In this document: positions 1 through 9,144 of the stretch, piece by piece | How the letters are laid out: each line of letters begins with the position of its first letter | Position numbering within the stretch: the stretch's first letter is position 1 | Source: Spirochaetaceae bacterium | Lineage (GTDB): Bacteria; Spirochaetota; Spirochaetia; Treponematales; Rectinemataceae | Assembly (NCBI GenBank): GCA_003452735.1 | Contig: DMNL01000175.1 | Span: forward strand, 1-59,222 | Direction of reading: 5' to 3' | DNA length: 59,222 nt | Notes under the pieces: generated by a model | Told to the model about the DNA's origin: nothing | What the model saw: the letters and a program-made list of their open reading frames with translations, nothing else | Databases searched by the model: none | Translations under genes and position numbers: made by a program

Positions 1-38
1 TATATCCCGAGTTAAGGGTTAGTGGATCGGCAGGAGAG
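1..38 (+). repeat. Direct repeat copy 1 (pairs with 1603-1640)
   Basis: Matches 1603-1640 at 36 of 38 bases, offset exactly 1602 nt (534 codons), so both copies are in the same reading frame and encode YPELRVSGSAGE. The two differences (AGT/AGC and GCA/GCG) are synonymous. The window edge hides whether similarity extends further left. Confidence 0.9.
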
Positions 39-3000
39 GGAGGGTTACGATTTGAGCAGCTAGAGGTAATAGGGGAAGGGTATGGATTTAAGGGGTCTAT
101 AGATCTCAAGGAAGAAGGGGGGAGGTATATATTTATTGGGAGTGGGAGGGGTGAAGGGGCCTTAGGGGAAGGTTCTGAGTACTCGATATGGGGAGGGGTT
201 AAGGGCAAGGGAGTAGAGTTGAGGGTAGGGGTACAAGGTTTAGAGGTAAGAGGGTATGAGGTAGAGGGATATGCTGATTTGATAGGGGAAGTGGACATAG
301 GGGAGTTATTGAAGGGGTCTTGGGAGGGGTTAGGGGACATAAGTGGGGAAGTAGCGATAGGTTTGAGGGGTTCTGGGTTAAGTGTAGTGGAGCAACGTTT
401 TAAGGTGAGCAAGCGAGGGAGTAGGATAGAGTGTGAGAGGGAAGGGGGAGGTGGTTTAGTTAGGGGTTGGTATGAGAGTGGGGAGTGGGGTTTAGAGGGG
501 GTATTTGAAGGGTACAGGGCTGGGGAGGACATAGGGGTAGGAGGGGTATGGGGTAATTTAGTAAGGGGTAGTGAGGTAAGTGGTAAGGTAGAGGTAGGGG
601 GTAAGGGTAAGGAGCTAGTTGGGTATGAGGTAGATTTAGGGATTGAAATAGGGGAGGGTATAGAGATATTTGGTAAAGGGGTAGGTGGAATAGGAGTAAG
701 GCTTAAGGGGGTAGGGGATATAGGCAGGTATATAGGGGAGGTTAGTGTAGTTAAGGGTGGGGGTAAGGTGAGGTATGAGGGGGAGGTAGGGTATGAGGGT
801 ATAAGGTTAGTAGGCAGGTATGAGGTGAGTGGAGAGGGTATAGGGATAAGAGGGGAGGTAAGAGGAGGTGGGGGGGCATATGAGATAGGGGTAGAGGGAG
901 GGGGAGTGAAGGGTATAGGGGTAGGGGCAGGTATTTGTAAAGTTAAGGTAGGGGAAGAAAGTTATGAGGTAAGGTATGAGGGGGTTATAGGGGGAGGGGA
1001 AGTGAAGTTAGGGGGTAGTATAGGTAAGTTAGGAGGTTATGAGGGGGTTGTGGAGTTAGAGGGGGTAGGGATAGGTAAGGTGATGGAGGCCATAGGGGTA
1101 AGAGGAGTAGAAGGTAAGGTTAGGGGGCGGATATATGGGTTAGAGAGGGGAGGGAAGATATCTTGGAGTATAAGTGGGTTAGGGTATGAGGGGGAGGTGA
1201 TGGGTATAGGGGTAGGGATAAGAGGAGAAGGGGTAGGGGATGAGAAGGGATATGAGATAAAGGGGTTGGAGGTAAGTATAGGTAGTTATGATATAGGGTT
1301 GAGGGGTAAGGGGATATATGGGGGGGAGTTATTTTCTGGGGAGGTTAGTGGAGGGGGGATGAGGTATGAGGTGAGGGTAGGGATAAGGGGTGGAGAGGTA
1401 AGAGTAGAGGTAGGGAAGGAGTGTAGTGGGGTATTTGAGGTATCTGGGGGTCGTGTAGGGGGGGAGGTAGGGATGGATAATTTTGGTATAGGGATAGGGG
1501 ATGGGGTAATGAGGTTAGGGGGCAAGGCTAGGGGTTGGTATGAGGGTGGGCATTGGGGGATAAGTTTAGATGGGATTAGTTTGAGGTATGAGGGAGAGGG
1601 GGTATATCCCGAGTTAAGGGTTAGCGGATCGGCGGGAGAGCAAGAAGCCAATCTCAATATAGATTATTTACAATATGCTGGACAATCGCTAAAAGGTTCA
1701 ATGGCTATCCAATATTCTTCGATAGCTAATCTACTAAAAGATACAAAAATAAATTATTCATTCCTGAGCATTGAAACTAATAGGCCAATCCTAGAAGGAA
1801 GGATTGTAGCTCTAGACAACAACCTTGAAGTTTCAATTATCGCATCATCAATTCCATTGGAAGAAATATTGCCATCTACTCTTAATATTTCTGGAGATAT
1901 AGAGTTAAAGGGAAGTGCAACCATTTTAATATCAGGTAAAAAGTTCAATCTTTCTGATATATCTTATCTGGGTCTGCAATTCAACACTAGAAAAGCAGAA
2001 ATGAAAGGAATATCTTTTTCAGCTTCGGCTGTAATAAAGCTTAAGGGTTCTGCTTTATCTTTGGAATCTGGATTTTTCTCTTATCAGAACTATAGATTTG
2101 AAAATATAAATGCTGAATACGATATAGATACAAAACAAGTCACCTATGATCTGAATTCTAAGATAGTAATTGGTAAACAATTGCTAAGCGCTAGGTTGAA
2201 AGGCATAGGCGAAAATGTGGATGACTCTATATTTAAACCAGATATGGCTCAGAATTTTAATATTATCGGGGATATAATTGAAGCAAAATTCGGATCTAGA
2301 GCTATAGATCCACTAACCTACTCAATTTCTTATTTGGAACACAACCTACAGATTCATCTAAGCCAAGCAAACGGGGACAGCATCGATGCCTCGATAAATA
2401 ATATGACAGATTTTGATCTTGTCTTAAATGATTTATTTAAGGTCAAAGGAAAAGCTAGTGGTAAAATCCAAGCAAACGAAGTATCAGCTGACATTGTTTT
2501 GGAGAAAATTGATTTAACATCGCTAGGAGCTTTGATCTCAAAAGATATTTTACGAGATATCTCGGGAGACGCATCGGCTGTATTGCATCTCTCTGGAGAT
2601 ATATCAGACCCTAGAATTGAAGGCAGAATCTTATTCAGCAATTTTATTATCGATCCGAATCTATATGTTCTAGAAAAAATGGGACCTTTCAATGCAGAAA
2701 TTACTATAAGTGATGGGGTAGTGGAATTAAGTCCAACAATTGTGAATATTGGAACTGGCGATATTTCCCTTGCTGCGACTGCGAACCTTGCTAGATGGCA
2801 ACTCAGCGATATCAAAGTCTTTTTTTCAACTCTTGAGAAAGCTTCTATGCGCTTAAAAGGAACTATTGGTGGGTTGAATACTGATGGCATTTGGATTAAA
2901 GGCGATATAAAAGCAGCAATATCTTCGGATTTTGTCGAAATTGGCGGGAATATACTTCTAGATAATGGGACACTTGAAGTTGATCCTAATGGTTTTGTTT

Positions 3001-3905
3001 TCTCAGAAAACACCCAATCTCCAGTTTCGCCTCTTTATCTCAATTTAATTGTTACATTTGGAAAAAATGTCCAAATGTATATACCCAACAAGGATATATC
3101 ACTTATTAAAGGTACTATATCTCCTACTTCGACTTTGAAAGTGCAATACGATCAGGCAAAAGGAGATCTTGCTGTAAATGGTAGCATTGAGCTTCGTTCG
3201 GGATACATATATTATCTCCTGAGAGATTTCTTTATAAAAGAGTGCACAATAGAACTCTCAGAAAACCAATCCAAATTCAATCCAGTTATGACTGTCATTG
3301 CTGAGTTGATGGAGCCCAGCAAGGATGGAATGATCAAAATAACGCTTTCAGCCAACAAATCTCCTATAGATAACTTCAATCCAGTATTGTCTTCGGTGCC
3401 TCCAAAAAGCCAAATCGAGCTTCTTGCTCTTCTTGGTGGTGGATTAGCACTTTCAGAGTTAGCAGAGAATACTCCTCTTACATTGAAAGAAGCAGTAATC
3501 GCAAGCTCCGAGTTTCTTACACATAATTTGGTTTTTAGATCATTCGAGCAACGAGTTCAAAAGGCTTTAGGCCTTGATGTTCTTTACCTGCAGTCATCTT
3601 TTATTCAGCGTTGGCTTCTAGATATAACAGATGAGGCCCATAAGGATCAGACTAATTTATCGAAGTATCTAATTGGAACAGGGCTTTTTGGAGGAAAATA
3701 TATAACCGATTCAGCTTTTGCGCATTTTTCTCTTAGGATAGAGCAGAACCCGCTTGAGAAAACTGGATTTTTACAATTAAATCCAGAAATTGGGCTCGAA
3801 CTGCAATCTCCATTTGGTCTTTTGAAATGGAGTATGTCGTTTGGTAAAGAAGGCATGCCCTTAAATAACCAAGACCTTAGTTTGAGTTGGCGTATCAATT
3901 TTTGA
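1..3905 (+). CDS. tamB: TamB-like translocation/assembly module protein (DUF490), 5' truncated by window edge
   Basis: About 1,300 codons are visible; the frame (first full codon at base 3) is open to the left edge, so the true start lies outside and the TTG at 219 is only an internal codon. The C-terminal ~250 residues carry the TamB/DUF490 hallmark: beta-rich repeats, then a segment ending in SSVPPKSQIELLALLGGG. TamB proteins are long beta-taco proteins spanning the periplasm, implicated in phospholipid transport or in outer-membrane protein assembly with a BamA-family partner. bamA follows 18 bases after the stop, which fits. Residues encoded before about base 1640 are very different in composition (Gly, Glu, Val, Arg, Ile, Tyr; no Thr, and Pro only in the repeated YPEL motif) because the coding strand almost lacks C; after 1640 codon use is ordinary. 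Family call is firm for the C-terminus, inferred for the N-terminal part. Confidence 0.85.
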   Translation, partial: YPELRVSGSAGEGGLRFEQLEVIGEGYGFKGSIDLKEEGGRYIFIGSGRGEGALGEGSEYSIWGGVKGKGVELRVGVQGLEVRGYEVEGYADLIGEVDIGELLKGSWEGLGDISGEVAIGLRGSGLSVVEQRFKVSKRGSRIECEREGGGGLVRGWYESGEWGLEGVFEGYRAGEDIGVGGVWGNLVRGSEVSGKVEVGGKGKELVGYEVDLGIEIGEGIEIFGKGVGGIGVRLKGVGDIGRYIGEVSVVKGGGKVRYEGEVGYEGIRLVGRYEVSGEGIGIRGEVRGGGGAYEIGVEGGGVKGIGVGAGICKVKVGEESYEVRYEGVIGGGEVKLGGSIGKLGGYEGVVELEGVGIGKVMEAIGVRGVEGKVRGRIYGLERGGKISWSISGLGYEGEVMGIGVGIRGEGVGDEKGYEIKGLEVSIGSYDIGLRGKGIYGGELFSGEVSGGGMRYEVRVGIRGGEVRVEVGKECSGVFEVSGGRVGGEVGMDNFGIGIGDGVMRLGGKARGWYEGGHWGISLDGISLRYEGEGVYPELRVSGSAGEQEANLNIDYLQYAGQSLKGSMAIQYSSIANLLKDTKINYSFLSIETNRPILEGRIVALDNNLEVSIIASSIPLEEILPSTLNISGDIELKGSATILISGKKFNLSDISYLGLQFNTRKAEMKGISFSASAVIKLKGSALSLESGFFSYQNYRFENINAEYDIDTKQVTYDLNSKIVIGKQLLSARLKGIGENVDDSIFKPDMAQNFNIIGDIIEAKFGSRAIDPLTYSISYLEHNLQIHLSQANGDSIDASINNMTDFDLVLNDLFKVKGKASGKIQANEVSADIVLEKIDLTSLGALISKDILRDISGDASAVLHLSGDISDPRIEGRILFSNFIIDPNLYVLEKMGPFNAEITISDGVVELSPTIVNIGTGDISLAATANLARWQLSDIKVFFSTLEKASMRLKGTIGGLNTDGIWIKGDIKAAISSDFVEIGGNILLDNGTLEVDPNGFVFSENTQSPVSPLYLNLIVTFGKNVQMYIPNKDISLIKGTISPTSTLKVQYDQAKGDLAVNGSIELRSGYIYYLLRDFFIKECTIELSENQSKFNPVMTVIAELMEPSKDGMIKITLSANKSPIDNFNPVLSSVPPKSQIELLALLGGGLALSELAENTPLTLKEAVIASSEFLTHNLVFRSFEQRVQKALGLDVLYLQSSFIQRWLLDITDEAHKDQTNLSKYLIGTGLFGGKYITDSAFAHFSLRIEQNPLEKTGFLQLNPEIGLELQSPFGLLKWSMSFGKEGMPLNNQDLSLSWRINF
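1603..1640 (+). repeat. Direct repeat copy 2 at the composition boundary
   Basis: Second copy of the 38-base in-frame repeat. It sits exactly where the C-poor block ends: the bases after GGAGAG turn at once into normal AT-rich, C-containing coding sequence. Confidence 0.9.
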
Positions 3906-3923
3906 GAAAATACAGGAGCAGCA

Positions 3924-6476
3924 ATGAAATATTCGAATAGGCTTTTCATCTCAATCATAATGATTTTTTGTGCTTTTCAAATAATTTGCGCTCAGACTTC
4001 GACAGAAGAGCTTCCTCACCAAGATAATTCTCAGGATTGGTTTTGGAATAAAAAAATAGCTGGATTCAAATGGGATGGATTACACTATGCAAACCGCAAT
4101 GATCTCGATTCCATGCTGCGTGGCTACATAGGGACATTTTTTACTGAGAATATTTGGATAGAAATTCAAGCAAAGCTCTATGCGCTAGATTGGTTTGAGA
4201 GCATTGAATCTATCGCATTACCAGCTGGAGATGAAGAAGATAGAATAATAATTAAATTCATAGTGATCGAAAAGCCATCTATCAGCTCTATAAAAGTCAT
4301 TGGAAACAGTTCTATCAGAACGTCGGAATTACTCGATGTCGCTTCTTCGAAAACCGGTGCAATTTTTAATGAAGATAAAGCAAAGGCTGATGCACTTGCG
4401 ATCCAAAAATTCTACCTACAGAAGGGTTTCCCCGATGCAAAAGTGGAATATGAAAAAAATCCTGCTGCAGGAAATCCTAACCTAATAGTGTTGACATTCA
4501 AGGTAACCGAAGGAACAGCTGTTGTTGTTAGAAAGATCGCATTCTCAGGTAATTCTGCATTTTCTTCTCAGACTCTCAAAGGCCAGGTAACACTTAAAGA
4601 AGCTGGGCTTTTTCAGAAAGGAGCATACGAAGAATCAAAGCTGGCTGAAAGCCGAACAGCTTTAGAAGATTATTATGCATCTAAGGGATATGTAGATGCT
4701 AAAGTCATAGATGTAATCAAGAATTATTCCAAAGATGAAAAAAGTCAGAAAAACTATATAGACATAACTTTTGTTATAGCCGAAGGCAAGCAATGGAGAT
4801 TAGGTGATATTGTCTTTGAAGGCAATAGTATATTTTCTACATCTCGCCTTGCTTCTTTGATATCTCTAAAACAGAATGAACCCATAAATCTGAAGCGCCT
4901 TCTTACTGACAAACAAAAAATAGACGATCTATATTATGAATCCGGCTATATTTTCAATAATATAACAATGACTGAAGTTCGAGATGAACAGACTGGAAAA
5001 ATTTCATTCAAGATCTCGATCATCGAAAGGGATAGGGCTCATATAGAGAGTATTACCTTCAAGGGCAATACAAAGACAAAGGATTATGTCATTGCAAGAG
5101 AAATACCGCTTGAAGCTGGTGAAGTATTTTCAAAGACAAAGATCATCGATGGACTACGAAATCTATATAGCCTTCAATACTTCTCATCTATCGAGCCTGA
5201 GATTCATCAAGGAAGTGTAATAGACTTGATGGATCTGGTTATAAATGTAGAAGAAATGAGCACATCTCAAATACAATTTGGTCTTACGCTATCTGGGCTT
5301 GGACAACAAACTGCTTTTCCTATCTCAGGATTTGTAAAATTTAGCGACTTGAATCTTGGGGGCACGGGAAAGAACCTTCAGGTCAATATGACACTTTCTC
5401 CAGATGAACAAAGCCTAGAGACTTCATTTGGTCAGAGCTGGCTTTTTAATAAGCGAATATCTCAGAGTCTTAGCTTCAATATAGCGCATTCAATCCTTCA
5501 GACTGCACAAGATTCTATAGCTCCTATTTTCTCTGAGGAAGACATTCCAGATCCGTTTATTGCGCTTGGAAGTGGATCAAATGAATGGGATGGCCTTCTT
5601 TCATCGGTTTCAGATACTTACTTGATGGATTACGATGATTATGCTTTCAGCCTTGGGTATTCGATGGGCTATGTTCATAAAATATCGCAAGGGGATGTGG
5701 GAATTTCTGGGGGTGTTTCTTCAGGCTTAGATATGTCTTCCTATGACAGCGCCAAATATCGCCCTTACGAAAAAGAAATGCGCGACTATAATGGTCAATG
5801 GGTATTAAAAAATTCTATTTTTGGTCGGGTATATCTGAATAAGTTGGATTATTGGTATAACCCTGGGAAAGGATACTTTTTAAGTGAACGTCTCGCTTAC
5901 ACAGGGTTATTGCCAATAGAACGTCAATTCTATATCAGATCTGATACGCGTGCAGAATTATATGCAACACTTTTTTCCATTCCTTTCTCAAGTACTTGGA
6001 TATTCTCACCAGTTCTCGGTATTCATAGTGGAGTTCAGGCACTTTTCCCTCAACCATGGAATTCGCTAAAAGTTACAAAAGACTGGGTATATATTGATGG
6101 CACATTCAATATGAGAGGTTGGAAATCTTTATACAACGGACACGGAATCCTTGTATGGGAAAACTGGCTAGAGCTACATCTTCCTCTAGTTCCTCAGATC
6201 CTAAGCTTAGACGGATTTTTTGACGCTGGAGCAATGATGACTGAGAACGGTTGGCTTGATATGACTTTTGATTCACCAGTCTCTACAAATAGTGATACTT
6301 TAGGATGGAATAATTTTGCCTTCTCTGTTGGCTTTGGGGCTAGATTTATAATTCCTCAGTTTCCTTTTAGATTCTATCTTGCTAAGCGTTTTGTATATGA
6401 TGGTTCTAAAGTCGAATGGAAGACTAAAGGAGGTTCCTTCGATTTTGTTTTGAGCATTACGCAACCGCTCTATTGA
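3924..6476 (+). CDS. bamA: BamA-family outer-membrane assembly factor
   Basis: 850 residues. The ATG is preceded by an AGGAG ribosome site and lies 18 bases after tamB. Residues 1-23 form a signal peptide ending near CAQ. Repeated POTRA-type segments occupy about residues 60-450 (for example ITFKGNTKTKDYVIAREIPL). The C-terminal ~400 residues look like a transmembrane beta-barrel with many aromatic girdle residues, an MRGW motif where BamA proteins carry the (V/I)RGF loop-6 motif, and an aromatic last residue (Tyr). BamA folds and inserts outer-membrane proteins. With tamB upstream and mutS downstream this matches the Treponema arrangement as I remember it, but without the skp/ompH-like gene that sits between bamA and mutS there. 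Strong call. Confidence 0.95.
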   Translation: MKYSNRLFISIIMIFCAFQIICAQTSTEELPHQDNSQDWFWNKKIAGFKWDGLHYANRNDLDSMLRGYIGTFFTENIWIEIQAKLYALDWFESIESIALPAGDEEDRIIIKFIVIEKPSISSIKVIGNSSIRTSELLDVASSKTGAIFNEDKAKADALAIQKFYLQKGFPDAKVEYEKNPAAGNPNLIVLTFKVTEGTAVVVRKIAFSGNSAFSSQTLKGQVTLKEAGLFQKGAYEESKLAESRTALEDYYASKGYVDAKVIDVIKNYSKDEKSQKNYIDITFVIAEGKQWRLGDIVFEGNSIFSTSRLASLISLKQNEPINLKRLLTDKQKIDDLYYESGYIFNNITMTEVRDEQTGKISFKISIIERDRAHIESITFKGNTKTKDYVIAREIPLEAGEVFSKTKIIDGLRNLYSLQYFSSIEPEIHQGSVIDLMDLVINVEEMSTSQIQFGLTLSGLGQQTAFPISGFVKFSDLNLGGTGKNLQVNMTLSPDEQSLETSFGQSWLFNKRISQSLSFNIAHSILQTAQDSIAPIFSEEDIPDPFIALGSGSNEWDGLLSSVSDTYLMDYDDYAFSLGYSMGYVHKISQGDVGISGGVSSGLDMSSYDSAKYRPYEKEMRDYNGQWVLKNSIFGRVYLNKLDYWYNPGKGYFLSERLAYTGLLPIERQFYIRSDTRAELYATLFSIPFSSTWIFSPVLGIHSGVQALFPQPWNSLKVTKDWVYIDGTFNMRGWKSLYNGHGILVWENWLELHLPLVPQILSLDGFFDAGAMMTENGWLDMTFDSPVSTNSDTLGWNNFAFSVGFGARFIIPQFPFRFYLAKRFVYDGSKVEWKTKGGSFDFVLSITQPLY

Positions 6477-6555: not shown

Positions 6556-9144
6556 ATGTCTTCTAAATCAGACTCGATGCTCGATCAATATCGCAGAATA
6601 AAGGCTAAGCATCGCGATGAAATTCTCTTTTTTAGATTGGGCGATTTTTACGAAATGTTCAATGAAGACGCTCAAGAAGCGAGTGCAATTCTCGATCTGA
6701 CTTTAACCAAGCGGCAAGGCCTTCCTATGTGTGGAATACCTTATCATGCTGCCAAAGCCTATATTGCTCGACTTCTTAAGGCTGGTAAAAAGGTAGCAAT
6801 TTGCGAACAAAAGGCACTTTCTAATAATAAGCGCGGTCTTATGGATCGCGAAGTTGTAGAAGTGATTACACCAGGTACCGCATTAGAAGATGATTATCTA
6901 GAACAGGGTACAAATAACTATTTAGCAGACATCTGTATAATTGATCAAAGCCTTTGTTTTGCTTACTTAGATGTATCCACAGGCGAATTTAGAGCTTTTT
7001 CTTTGGCCTTCAAGAGAGAAATGGTAGCAGAGACAATAAGAGCCGAATTATATCGTTTGTCACCTCGTGAGATTTTAGTTCAGCAATCTATTCTTGATCA
7101 ACCCAAGCTTTTTCAGGTTATACGTGAGTGTGGCTCAATCATAGAAGCCCAGCCGGACTGGGTCTATGATATTTCGCACTCACTCGACTTGCTTAAGAAA
7201 AAATTCGGCATTGTATCTCTAAAGGGTTTCGGTTTTGAGGATAATGCTCCTGAAATCGCAGCCGCAGGTAATTTACTTGAATATGTACAGGAAATGATAC
7301 GTAAAAATTGCCCTCATATTCGAGCCTTGCTCCCCTATGAAGAAAAAGAATACGTGCTTTTAGATGAAGCCACAAAGAGAAACTTGGAACTTGTAAAGAA
7401 TCTTAGTGATTCTAGCAAGAGAGATACTCTTATTGAGGTAATAGATAAAACCAAAACAGCGGGCGGAGCTCGTCTTCTGCGCCAATGGCTCTTTCAACCT
7501 CTCAGAATTCGCGAGAAAATCGAAGAACGCTTAGAAGCAATTTCGTTTTTATACCATAATCAAATATTACTGACAGATATAAGAAAATTACTTTATGGCA
7601 TTCTCGATATAGAGAGATTGATATCTCGTCTTGCTGTCGATAAGGCTCATGCTAGAGATCTAAGAGCTATTCATGATTCAATCAATATTGGAATAAACCT
7701 TTTTGCTCTGATAGCATCTGCTCAAGCTCCTTTCGAACTAACTTCAAGGATGAGCAAGGAGCAACTTGAAGCTTGTAAGCATGTTATCGATACTATAGAA
7801 AAAACTATCTTGGAAGAGCCATCTATTTTGTTGACAGAAGGCAATATTATAAGGGATGGTTACGACAAAGAGCTTGACGATCTGAGAAATCTGCATAAGA
7901 ACACTCAGAAAGTACTTGAAGACTACCTTAAAGATGAGAAAAAGCGTACAGGGATTCAAAATCTACGGATAAGATATAATAGAATAATTGGTTATTACAT
8001 TGAAGTGACAAAAGGAAATCTTGCGAATGTTCCTTCTCATTTCATTCGCAGACAATCTCTAGTTGGCGCAGAACGATATACTACCGATCGATTAGCAGAA
8101 CTAGAGAGCAAGATCAATGGAGCGCAGGAGCGCATTATTGATATCGAGAAGAATATTTTTATCGAGATAAGAGATAGCCTGAAACAATTTATCCCTGCGC
8201 TGCTAGAATGCGCCTCAGAAATATCAAGGATAGACTGCTTGGCATCACTTGCTCAGACTGCAACTGAGCAAGGTTTTACAAAACCTCAAATTGAAGAAGA
8301 AGAAGATATAGAGATAATAAATGGCCGACATCCTGTAGTAGAAATCTGTTTGCCTTATGGAGATTTTGTACCAAATTCAATTAGCCTTTCAAGAAAGAGC
8401 AACTGGTTTATATTGATAACAGGTCCTAATATGGCTGGTAAATCTACTGTGCTTCGGCAAACGGCGCTTATTGTGCTTCTTGCTCACATGGGCAGTTTTG
8501 TACCAGCTGAATCGGCAAAGATAGGGCTCGTAGACAAGATTTACTGTCGTGTAGGAGCGCAGGACAATCTAGCTAGAGGTGAGAGCACTTTTCTGGTTGA
8601 AATGCATGAGACCGCTTTTATACTCAACACCGCGACTGAGAAAAGCCTTGTGATTATGGATGAAGTAGGTAGGGGAACAGGGACTCTGGATGGAGTATCG
8701 ATAGCTTGGGCGGTAAGTGAGTACCTTATAAAGAGAATCAGCTGCAGAACACTTTTTGCAACGCATTATCATGAGCTTACAACTATGGCAATTCCAGGGA
8801 TGCGCAACATGAGAATGGTTGCAACCGAACAAGATGGCAATATATCTTTTCCAAAAAGGCTCGAAGATGGTGCTTCAAGCGGTTCTTATGGCATACATGT
8901 TGCAAATCTTGCTGGATTGCCAAAAGAGGTTATCATAAGAGCTTCTGAAGTTGAATCACATTTTAATTCTATGGAGCAAGCATTAAAAGAAGAAAAACCC
9001 GAAGAAACCGCAGTTCCTTCTTATGAACTATTTAGCGCTGAAGATATTGTCATCGAAACATTGAAAAACATAGATCCAAACAATATTACACCAATTAAAG
9101 CTCTTCAAATTTTATCTGACCTCGTTGAGAGATTGAAGCAATGA
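6556..9144 (+). CDS. mutS: DNA mismatch repair protein MutS
   Basis: 862 residues, normal family length. The mismatch-recognition domain begins with FFRLGDFYEMF (the Phe-x-Glu mismatch wedge lies in DFYEMF). Connector, lever and clamp domains follow. The ATPase has Walker A GPNMAGKST at about 623-631 and Walker B VIMDEVGRGTG at about 698-708. MutS recognises base mismatches and starts mismatch repair; all key motifs are intact. An out-of-frame ATG lies 8 bases upstream, and the ATG at 6556 is the in-frame start. comF begins 9 bases after the stop. Confidence 0.97.
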   Translation: MSSKSDSMLDQYRRIKAKHRDEILFFRLGDFYEMFNEDAQEASAILDLTLTKRQGLPMCGIPYHAAKAYIARLLKAGKKVAICEQKALSNNKRGLMDREVVEVITPGTALEDDYLEQGTNNYLADICIIDQSLCFAYLDVSTGEFRAFSLAFKREMVAETIRAELYRLSPREILVQQSILDQPKLFQVIRECGSIIEAQPDWVYDISHSLDLLKKKFGIVSLKGFGFEDNAPEIAAAGNLLEYVQEMIRKNCPHIRALLPYEEKEYVLLDEATKRNLELVKNLSDSSKRDTLIEVIDKTKTAGGARLLRQWLFQPLRIREKIEERLEAISFLYHNQILLTDIRKLLYGILDIERLISRLAVDKAHARDLRAIHDSINIGINLFALIASAQAPFELTSRMSKEQLEACKHVIDTIEKTILEEPSILLTEGNIIRDGYDKELDDLRNLHKNTQKVLEDYLKDEKKRTGIQNLRIRYNRIIGYYIEVTKGNLANVPSHFIRRQSLVGAERYTTDRLAELESKINGAQERIIDIEKNIFIEIRDSLKQFIPALLECASEISRIDCLASLAQTATEQGFTKPQIEEEEDIEIINGRHPVVEICLPYGDFVPNSISLSRKSNWFILITGPNMAGKSTVLRQTALIVLLAHMGSFVPAESAKIGLVDKIYCRVGAQDNLARGESTFLVEMHETAFILNTATEKSLVIMDEVGRGTGTLDGVSIAWAVSEYLIKRISCRTLFATHYHELTTMAIPGMRNMRMVATEQDGNISFPKRLEDGASSGSYGIHVANLAGLPKEVIIRASEVESHFNSMEQALKEEKPEETAVPSYELFSAEDIVIETLKNIDPNNITPIKALQILSDLVERLKQ

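Follow-up and report, generated by a model that had tools for sequence, protein, structure and literature searches.

A nearly cytosine-free, tandemly repeated coding segment within the tamB gene of a spirochaete clade

The middle of the tamB gene carries almost no cytosine on its coding strand in a clade of spirochaetes, and in most of the multi-copy genes this segment stands in tandem copies that, judging from the encoded proteins, appear to undergo concerted evolution. The segment was encountered at the start of a contig of 59,222 nt (hereafter the window), whose organism we take to belong to the Rectinemataceae by the names on its matches (P0007, "Rectinema sp."; P0019, "Rectinemataceae"). 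TamB itself is thought to bridge two cell membranes. Rectinema cohabitans, a rod-shaped fermenter, has been described from an enrichment that degrades naphthalene, and its relatives occur at contaminated sites (PMC6052044).

Locus and Repeat Architecture

The window contig starts inside a tandem array (Table 1). Its truncated tamB gives a PF04357 (TamB) match at 1602-3800 (E 5.8e-11, 42.7 bits), and the encoded protein is 99.3% identical over 1300 aa to P0001, the representative of 58 member sequences, in which the order is N-half, core, bridge, core, C-half and PF04357 scores 42.3 bits against a cut-off of 22.4. The N-half of the window's own gene sits on a separate contig (G000:C52), which ends at the core edge and is 99.3% identical to P0001. 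A preliminary description, made from the window alone, had taken the C-poor block for one segment of more than 1.6 kb; it consists instead of the tail of one core copy, a bridge and a second core copy. The same description saw the block as coding and as running on in frame into TamB, and this holds: there are no stops across 39-1602 (the two other forward frames have 103 and 55), and the PF04357 match lies downstream. By eye, the translation of the bridge resembles that of the ~125 codons with which the C-half opens (1641-2009), as a paralogue would. The two reading frames after tamB are presumably a BamA/Omp85-like gene, judging by sequence and gene order, and a mutS-like gene, judging by sequence. 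The locus shares with TamB/AsmA-like bridges its N-terminal half, bridge and PF04357 C-terminal domain, and its position directly upstream of a BamA-like gene; it differs from them in that many members of the clade carry repeats of the bridge segment, whose DNA has been transformed.

Table 1. Features of the tamB locus at the start of the window.
Feature	Position	Strand	Remarks
tamB, 5'-truncated by contig end	1..3905	+	open for 1300 codons, starting at base 3; P0001, a full-length homologue, has 1977 aa
Tail of preceding core copy	1..38	+	repeated at 1603-1640, 95% identity, spacing 1602
Bridge between two core copies, 124 codons	39..410	+	G 0.438, C 0.059, skew 0.762
Core, last copy of homogenised 410-codon repeat	411..1640	+	both copies in P0001 fully identical (100%, 410 aa)
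C-free zone proper	411-1602	+	G 0.492, C 0.017, skew 0.934
G-rich/C-poor compositional segment	9..1602	+	maximal-scoring segment; right edge within ~30-60 nt
C-terminal half of TamB, ordinary composition	1641..3902	+	skew 0.04; PF04357
Gene next to tamB	3924..6476	+	open reading frame
Second gene after tamB	6556..9144	+	open reading frame

Base Composition of the Block

Direct counting in bases 421-1600 gave 19 C, 580 G, 314 A and 267 T. The count of C is exactly the approximate figure first reported, and the several 60-base stretches said to lack C were likewise found, 7 of the first 27 lines of the window having none. G had been put at over half; this part of the statement fails, although 11 of the 27 lines reach 50%, since G comes to 49% overall, while its C-poverty part stands. 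Between position 219 and the second YPEL motif (nt 1605), the 462 residues include no Thr, no Pro, two Gln, two Asn and one His, again as described. The lowest C count in the other 1,180-nt stretches of the 59 kb is 158 (n = 2,821), and the scarcity of C in the core is not due to chance. GC skew is far below the core and bridge values of Table 1 in the C-half (0.040) and in the rest of the window (0.053); for the block and the rest of the window, GC is 0.51 vs. 0.40 and skew 0.93 vs. 0.05. Across the measured cores G content is 46-58% and skew 0.69-0.93, and no 600-nt stretch exceeds an absolute skew of 0.24 along 345 kb of contig G007:C20 from a relative (its 19.5-kb array-bearing stretch left out).

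This strand bias acts on the DNA, at synonymous as well as replacement sites, because both four-fold degenerate sites and recoding of the same protein reveal the C deficit. When the core protein is recoded in the codon usage of the genome, 117±8 C are expected (minimum 90 in 1,000 draws), as compared to 20 observed and a smallest possible number of 6. At four-fold sites, G and C stand at 0.42 and 0.02 in the window core vs. 0.13 and 0.12 in the C-half, and at 0.69 and 0.05 vs. 0.22 and 0.22 in the relative G002; relative to the C-half, G in these two cores is thus ~3x and C ~0.2x, which bears out the earlier claim of a bias towards G as well as against C. Codon choice follows the same direction for Gly (GGG in 69 of 121 core codons vs. 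8 of 54 in the C-half) and for Ser (AGY in 16 of 19 vs. 17 of 78). These results bear on the idea that the protein is Gly/Val/Glu-rich for structural reasons and that the DNA merely follows. Gly does make up 30% of core residues, and the modelled fold is a long run of short beta strands (see below); however, the C deficit for an unchanged protein and the shift to GGG refute the protein as sole cause, and we regard this account as extremely unlikely.

Targeted hypermutation was among the candidates of the preliminary description; acting on the coding strand through a deaminase or a retroelement-like system, it would explain why the bias is local and strand-specific. Deamination would raise T, yet T in the core lies below T in the flank, in agreement with the initial judgment that plain C-to-T deamination is a poor fit. 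Diversity-generating retroelements target adenine, and A is not depleted here, unlike what such action would leave; nor does a second copy of the block occur elsewhere in the window's genome (79% complete). We consider hypermutation very unlikely.

The edges of the skew are sharp and lie near the repeat ends. Composition shifts within ~30 nt at the N edge in both G007 and G009 and at the C edge in G007; at either edge in G002, and at the right edge in the window, the shift is complete within ~30-60 nt. The skewed interval is slightly shorter than the repeat, since the last 38 repeat bases (1603-1640) fall outside it. Skew extends into the bridge (0.76 in the window, 0.81 in the relative L002 and 0.69 in each of three G007 bridges); the corresponding cores stand at 0.93, 0.87 and 0.82.

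Distribution Across the Family

We built a tree from the C-terminal 480 residues (44 rows, midpoint root), in which a long-branch warning applies between the two halves. Clade A (support 100/100) comprises genera g1, g6, g7, g12, g13 and g14 together with 16 added P proteins, while the second half holds genera g2, g3, g4, g5, g8, g10 and g11, with the outgroup family f4 among them. Given the midpoint root, the long-branch warning and this placement of f4, we call this half the other group and not a sister clade. Family genomes G001, G003, G006, G011 and G017, without a usable C-half match, are absent from the tree.

Nine clade-A genomes have more than 400 nt upstream of the C-half match. The maximum 300-nt skew is 0.60-0.97 in eight of them (G000, G004, G007, G002, G021, G029, G014, G022) and 0.07 in the ninth, G020; G008, G005, G009, G028, G015 and G024 have less than 200 nt upstream. 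Strong G excess also appears at the N-side loci of G009, G028, G006 and G003, the last stored on the reverse strand. By comparison, skew is at most 0.22 in all 13 rows of the other group, and the orthologous TamB middle outside the clade has a skew of -0.065 to +0.029 in 7 of 7 loci (five other family genera, two f4), which speaks further against a composition dictated by the protein. A profile of seven cores matched 44 of the 194 genomes of the order at E<=0.001, and 22 of the genomes matched belong to other families; in all four genomes compared (G035, G040, G043, G048), the gene matched is the one that carries the C-half.

Because an orthologous and unskewed middle is present outside the clade, the block is an existing TamB segment whose base composition has changed. 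Insertion into TamB is ruled out by the homology of the core to the TamB middle in relatives. Expansion of short G-rich words, which the preliminary description had offered as an explanation, is ruled out by the same homology to an ordinary TamB middle and by an exclusion of C that still operates after about half of the four-fold sites have changed. Two short-period tandem arrays were detected, both weak. The long-period (1.6 kb) tandem duplication, with its homogenised copies and clade distribution, was beyond what the preliminary description could see.

Homogenised Tandem Copies

Within a protein, the two core copies are nearly or fully identical: 100% over 410 aa in P0001, 99.8% over 410 aa in P0002, and 100% in P0010 (462 aa), P0011 (474 aa) and P0012 (471 aa). 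Between species the picture is different, with six other cores 33-66% identical to that of the window, those of P0011 and P0012 70% identical to each other, and either of these 41-44% identical to that of P0010. Copies that are 99.8-100% alike within a protein yet 33-70% alike between species point firmly to concerted evolution in most multi-copy genes. P0008 and P0009 have further near-identical core copies and P0013 a partial second one, all three ending in apparent frameshifts (by eye). Either the duplication preceded speciation and has been homogenised since, or each gene was duplicated anew at much the same place. We favour the first, because unit length (534-563) and bridge are similar among the proteins: the core spans 410-474 codons and the unit 528-563 codons in the clade (452 in two proteins), and the bridges of P0001, P0010 and P0011 look homologous by eye.

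The exception is of the g12 type, with four diverged copies each in P0018 (2911 aa, on a contig of 2.36 Mb) and P0019 (2900 aa, named Rectinemataceae). Copy by copy, the two proteins are 58-66% identical; identity is 45-49% among the copies of P0018 and 48-55% among those of P0019. Their arrays are less rich in G/V/E/K/R (46-47% vs. 65-71% in six others), and G020, a relative whose C-terminus is 66% identical to P0018 and joins it in the tree at 88/82 support, is weakly skewed (at most 0.34 in 150-nt pieces). The g12 case is one contrast and not a statistical association. Short (about 340-370 aa) and long (about 460-475 aa) core forms alternate in P0018 and P0019; both lengths are also combined within P0008 and within P0009. 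P0020, named Candidatus Hydrogenedentales, resembles the four-copy TamB of Rectinemataceae and possibly derives from a mis-binned contig. PF27051 or PF27414 is precomputed for P0003, P0005-P0009, P0016 and P0018, and our own Pfam scan at E 0.01 gave no match to either in P0001, P0006, P0010 and P0016.

Arrays and copy numbers vary among relatives. The contig of L002, a Treponema sp. MAG whose C-half is 80% identical to that of the window, likewise starts inside the block, its bases 1-121 being the same as 1603-1723 at 100% identity. In G007, an array of ~5.5 kb, with ~3.4 units of ~1584 nt that are 96-98% identical, lies inside a 364-kb contig. The copies of this array (L033 11225-16765, on G007:C20) differ by 37 substitution and 27 indel columns; the indel columns are mostly single G, some N letters are present, and frames are broken inside the array. 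We take these differences for long-read errors in G runs, with slippage (phase variation) also possible.

Core copy numbers of about 1, 2, 3.4 and 4 were found. P0004, with one core, and G007, with ~3.4, are apparently the same species (N-half 99.7% identical). The genes that look single-copy (P0006/G002, P0014, P0016, P0017) all keep the G/V/E/K/R-rich core (with DNA for G002 only). Two copies are therefore not needed at each moment and, since copy number seems to change within species, single-copy genes may be recent contractions.

The array has a practical effect on assemblies, which it breaks: 13 of the 15 C-half matches of clade A have a contig end within 2 kb on their upstream side, as compared to 0 of 10 in the remaining genera of the family, and a collapsed repeat gives such breaks. 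The same breaks would fit an assembly or binning artefact. However, assemblies of different species agree (L002 and G007, and G002 in one 120-kb contig), P0001 stands for its 58 member sequences, and one frame runs open into normal flanks. An artefact is refuted for the composition and scarcely credible for the block at large, while exact copy numbers still rest on assemblies.

Substitution Pattern

Between the window and L002, C is conserved at 0.26-0.38 in the core vs. 0.72-0.80 in the C-half, with the other core bases conserved at 0.69-0.82 and bridge C at 0.73-0.94. In four species pairs, four-fold differences that involve C amount to 0.050-0.101 per core site as compared to 0.239-0.381 per C-half site; for other four-fold differences, the core has 0.338-0.496 and the C-half 0.180-0.379. 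Because new C is rarely accepted while other changes are frequent, the exclusion of C is still active. The preliminary description had considered that relatives might carry the C-poor segment at an ordinary rate and with no strand pattern; the relatives' segment shows a strand-specific pattern. Polarised changes from T to C number 3 of 276 in the core and 20 of 688 in the C-half (small counts). C gain is suppressed besides C loss being raised; the process therefore looks more like a fixation bias than deamination, and this too counts against hypermutation. In the lineage of the window and L002, G changed 50 times to T and 47 times to A but arose 3 times from T and 9 times from A (small counts), a loss of G that counts against a constant push towards G.

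Suppressed C gain is what a conversion bias would produce, and the bias may be a by-product, in which strand-asymmetric conversion or break repair (through biased mismatch repair or error-prone synthesis) drives C out with no benefit to the cell. Such an origin is also consistent with the close match between the bias and the homogenised interval, with the sharp edges, with the weak skew where copies have diverged, and with the larger share of G/T differences in the core (92 of 311 vs. 28 of 411 in the C-half). Yet the C-poor residue make-up persists in single-copy-looking genes, ordinary GC-biased conversion raises both G and C, and we know of no MutY-type bias that is strand-specific. Our search for Y-family DNA polymerase (PF00817) found it in 19 of 20 other family genomes but missed it in 8 of 10 genomes (several incomplete) of g1, the genus with the strongest skew, so that this polymerase is not supported as a mutator there. 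We hold a mere by-product to be doubtful.

Predicted Features of Transcript and DNA

Core mRNA is predicted to fold at -4.8 kcal per 120 nt; the same protein written in genome codons would give -21.6, and the C-half gives -21.7. This difference would suit selection on the transcript, in which a C-free, G-rich mRNA without G-C pairs stays open for ribosomes or RNA-binding factors. Nothing in this account gives a reason for such a need in only one segment of one gene, however, and it leaves the tandem copies and the edges near repeat ends unexplained; nor did positions 1-4000 yield an Rfam match at the gathering threshold. Selection on the transcript thus seems quite unlikely.

R-loop energies, computed by a nearest-neighbour method with assumed parameters, are -0.31 (window), -0.33 (G002), -0.34 (G007) and -0.26 kcal/mol/nt (L002) in the core, as compared to -0.04 to +0.01 in the flanks and -0.10 for the best other 600 nt of the window. 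Codon-shuffled cores have energies as low in 24 of 500 cases for the window, 8 of 500 for L002 and 472 of 500 for G002; with codon counts fixed, there is no consistent optimisation of R-loop energy. None of three cores exceeds its codon-shuffled versions in G4 coverage (140, 288 and 93 vs. 166±47, 247±51 and 88±38). Runs of at least 3 G are in slight excess in the window only (reached by 17 of 500 shuffles; 82 and 86 of 500 for the others), and runs of at least 5 G are fewer than shuffled in G002 (25 vs. 34.2±2.7). These controls do not support G4 selection as the main cause. FtsK-like GGGNAGGG words, at 10, 11 and 5 vs. 6.8, 8.7 and 4.3 in shuffled cores (reached in 53, 71 and 216 of 500), are in no clear excess. 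As to a phage or plasmid origin, blastn at E 1e-5 gave no match in either collection.

Proposed Mechanism

From the repeats, their homogenisation and the bias, we infer a cause to which we give about an even chance: that the segment is a recombination hotspot, a recombining and R-loop-prone intragenic repeat in which sequences with fewer C are favoured. A hotspot and a by-product differ in whether the bias is useful, and we rank the hotspot higher. Under this proposal, core copies would recombine often by gene conversion and unequal exchange. The G-rich, C-free non-template strand and its transcript would favour R-loops and unpaired single strands, and these would start recombination, as in immunoglobulin switch regions and in keeping with the part that GC skew has been proposed to play in vls. 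If R-loops start recombination, fewer-C sequences would in turn be favoured, via selection for recombining or via conversion bias. Selection on strand structure or on the transcript, raised in the preliminary description, forms part of this proposal. The outcome would be a TamB whose length shifts by whole repeat units while its sequence stays uniform. Skew and repeat nearly coincide, the edges are sharp, C gain is suppressed, and the diverged g12 copies go with weak skew in a relative; together these observations suggest that the bias is tied to recombination.

Several observations count against a hotspot. RNase HI is present in 27 of 30 and RNase HII in 28 of 30 family genomes, which rules out missing RNase H and weighs against R-loops. 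As compared to shuffled sequences, G4 coverage is not raised and R-loop energy not consistently lowered, and C is depleted more than T, something that R-loop energy alone would not predict. Core make-up is kept in single-copy-looking genes, the bridge of G007, although it is present three times, falls short of the core in skew, and C in the bridge of the window and L002 is as conserved as elsewhere (0.73, 0.94). Finally, G has been lost to A and T in the lineage of these two.

Among known systems, the vls cassettes of Lyme-disease Borrelia, an antigenic-variation locus, have GC skews of 0.50-0.555 among the table rows listed (mean 0.52); strong selection for this skew has been inferred and a role in gene conversion proposed (PMC11499132). 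Both systems belong to spirochaetes and consist of contiguous homologous coding segments, with gene conversion between copies in vls and frameshifts in some arrays. They differ in that skew is higher in the tamB core (0.69-0.93), that the tamB contig bears housekeeping genes and no antigen locus, and that the tamB copies lie in one reading frame of one protein and are uniform rather than varied. As to silent cassettes, none were found: the block matched only tamB pieces in 6 of 30 family genomes by blastn, which misses distant copies, the genomes being incomplete; apart from these, 22 nt match exactly where the N-half contig of the window's own genome ends. Heterogeneous vls-type variable regions between copies were not found in P0001, P0002 and P0010-P0012 (99.8-100% identical), P0018 and P0019 being excepted.

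Mammalian switch regions are non-coding, whereas the tamB repeat is an open reading frame; R-loops are known in the former and predicted in tamB from energy and composition. Both have repeats with a G-dense non-template strand (46% G in switch regions; PMC4245955), which recombine in switch regions and may do so in tamB. There, the density of G on the non-template strand governs R-loop extension and with it switching, and both R-loops and switching drop when it falls from 46% to 29% (PMC4245955). It is possible, though we put this forward tentatively, that tamB holds a coding counterpart of a switch region in a bacterium, whose transcribed repeat would form R-loops, recombine and set TamB length, with a bias that excludes C and holds copies identical as species diverge. 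Spider silk genes similarly have tandem coding repeats homogenised within a gene, and the title and opening of the abstract of that report make no mention of strand-specific loss of one base (PMC3933166).

Judged by titles and the beginnings of abstracts, our literature search found no description of such a C-free repeat, nor a paper that joins Rectinemataceae and TamB. With a skew of 0.69-0.93 and sharp edges in a housekeeping frame, the segment offers a natural experiment on one-strand G-richness of recombining repeats, comparable to vls. The family also has built-in controls, with skewed homogenised repeats, four diverged copies with a weakly skewed relative, and unskewed single genes elsewhere.

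AlphaFold2 models the core as ~50 consecutive short beta strands (mean pLDDT 81, pTM 0.52), with weak PDB structure matches (TM at most 0.25 among the matches listed). In this model, an added core copy would fit a longer bridge and, if the repeat sets TamB length, the family would provide a natural length series for a trans-envelope bridge.
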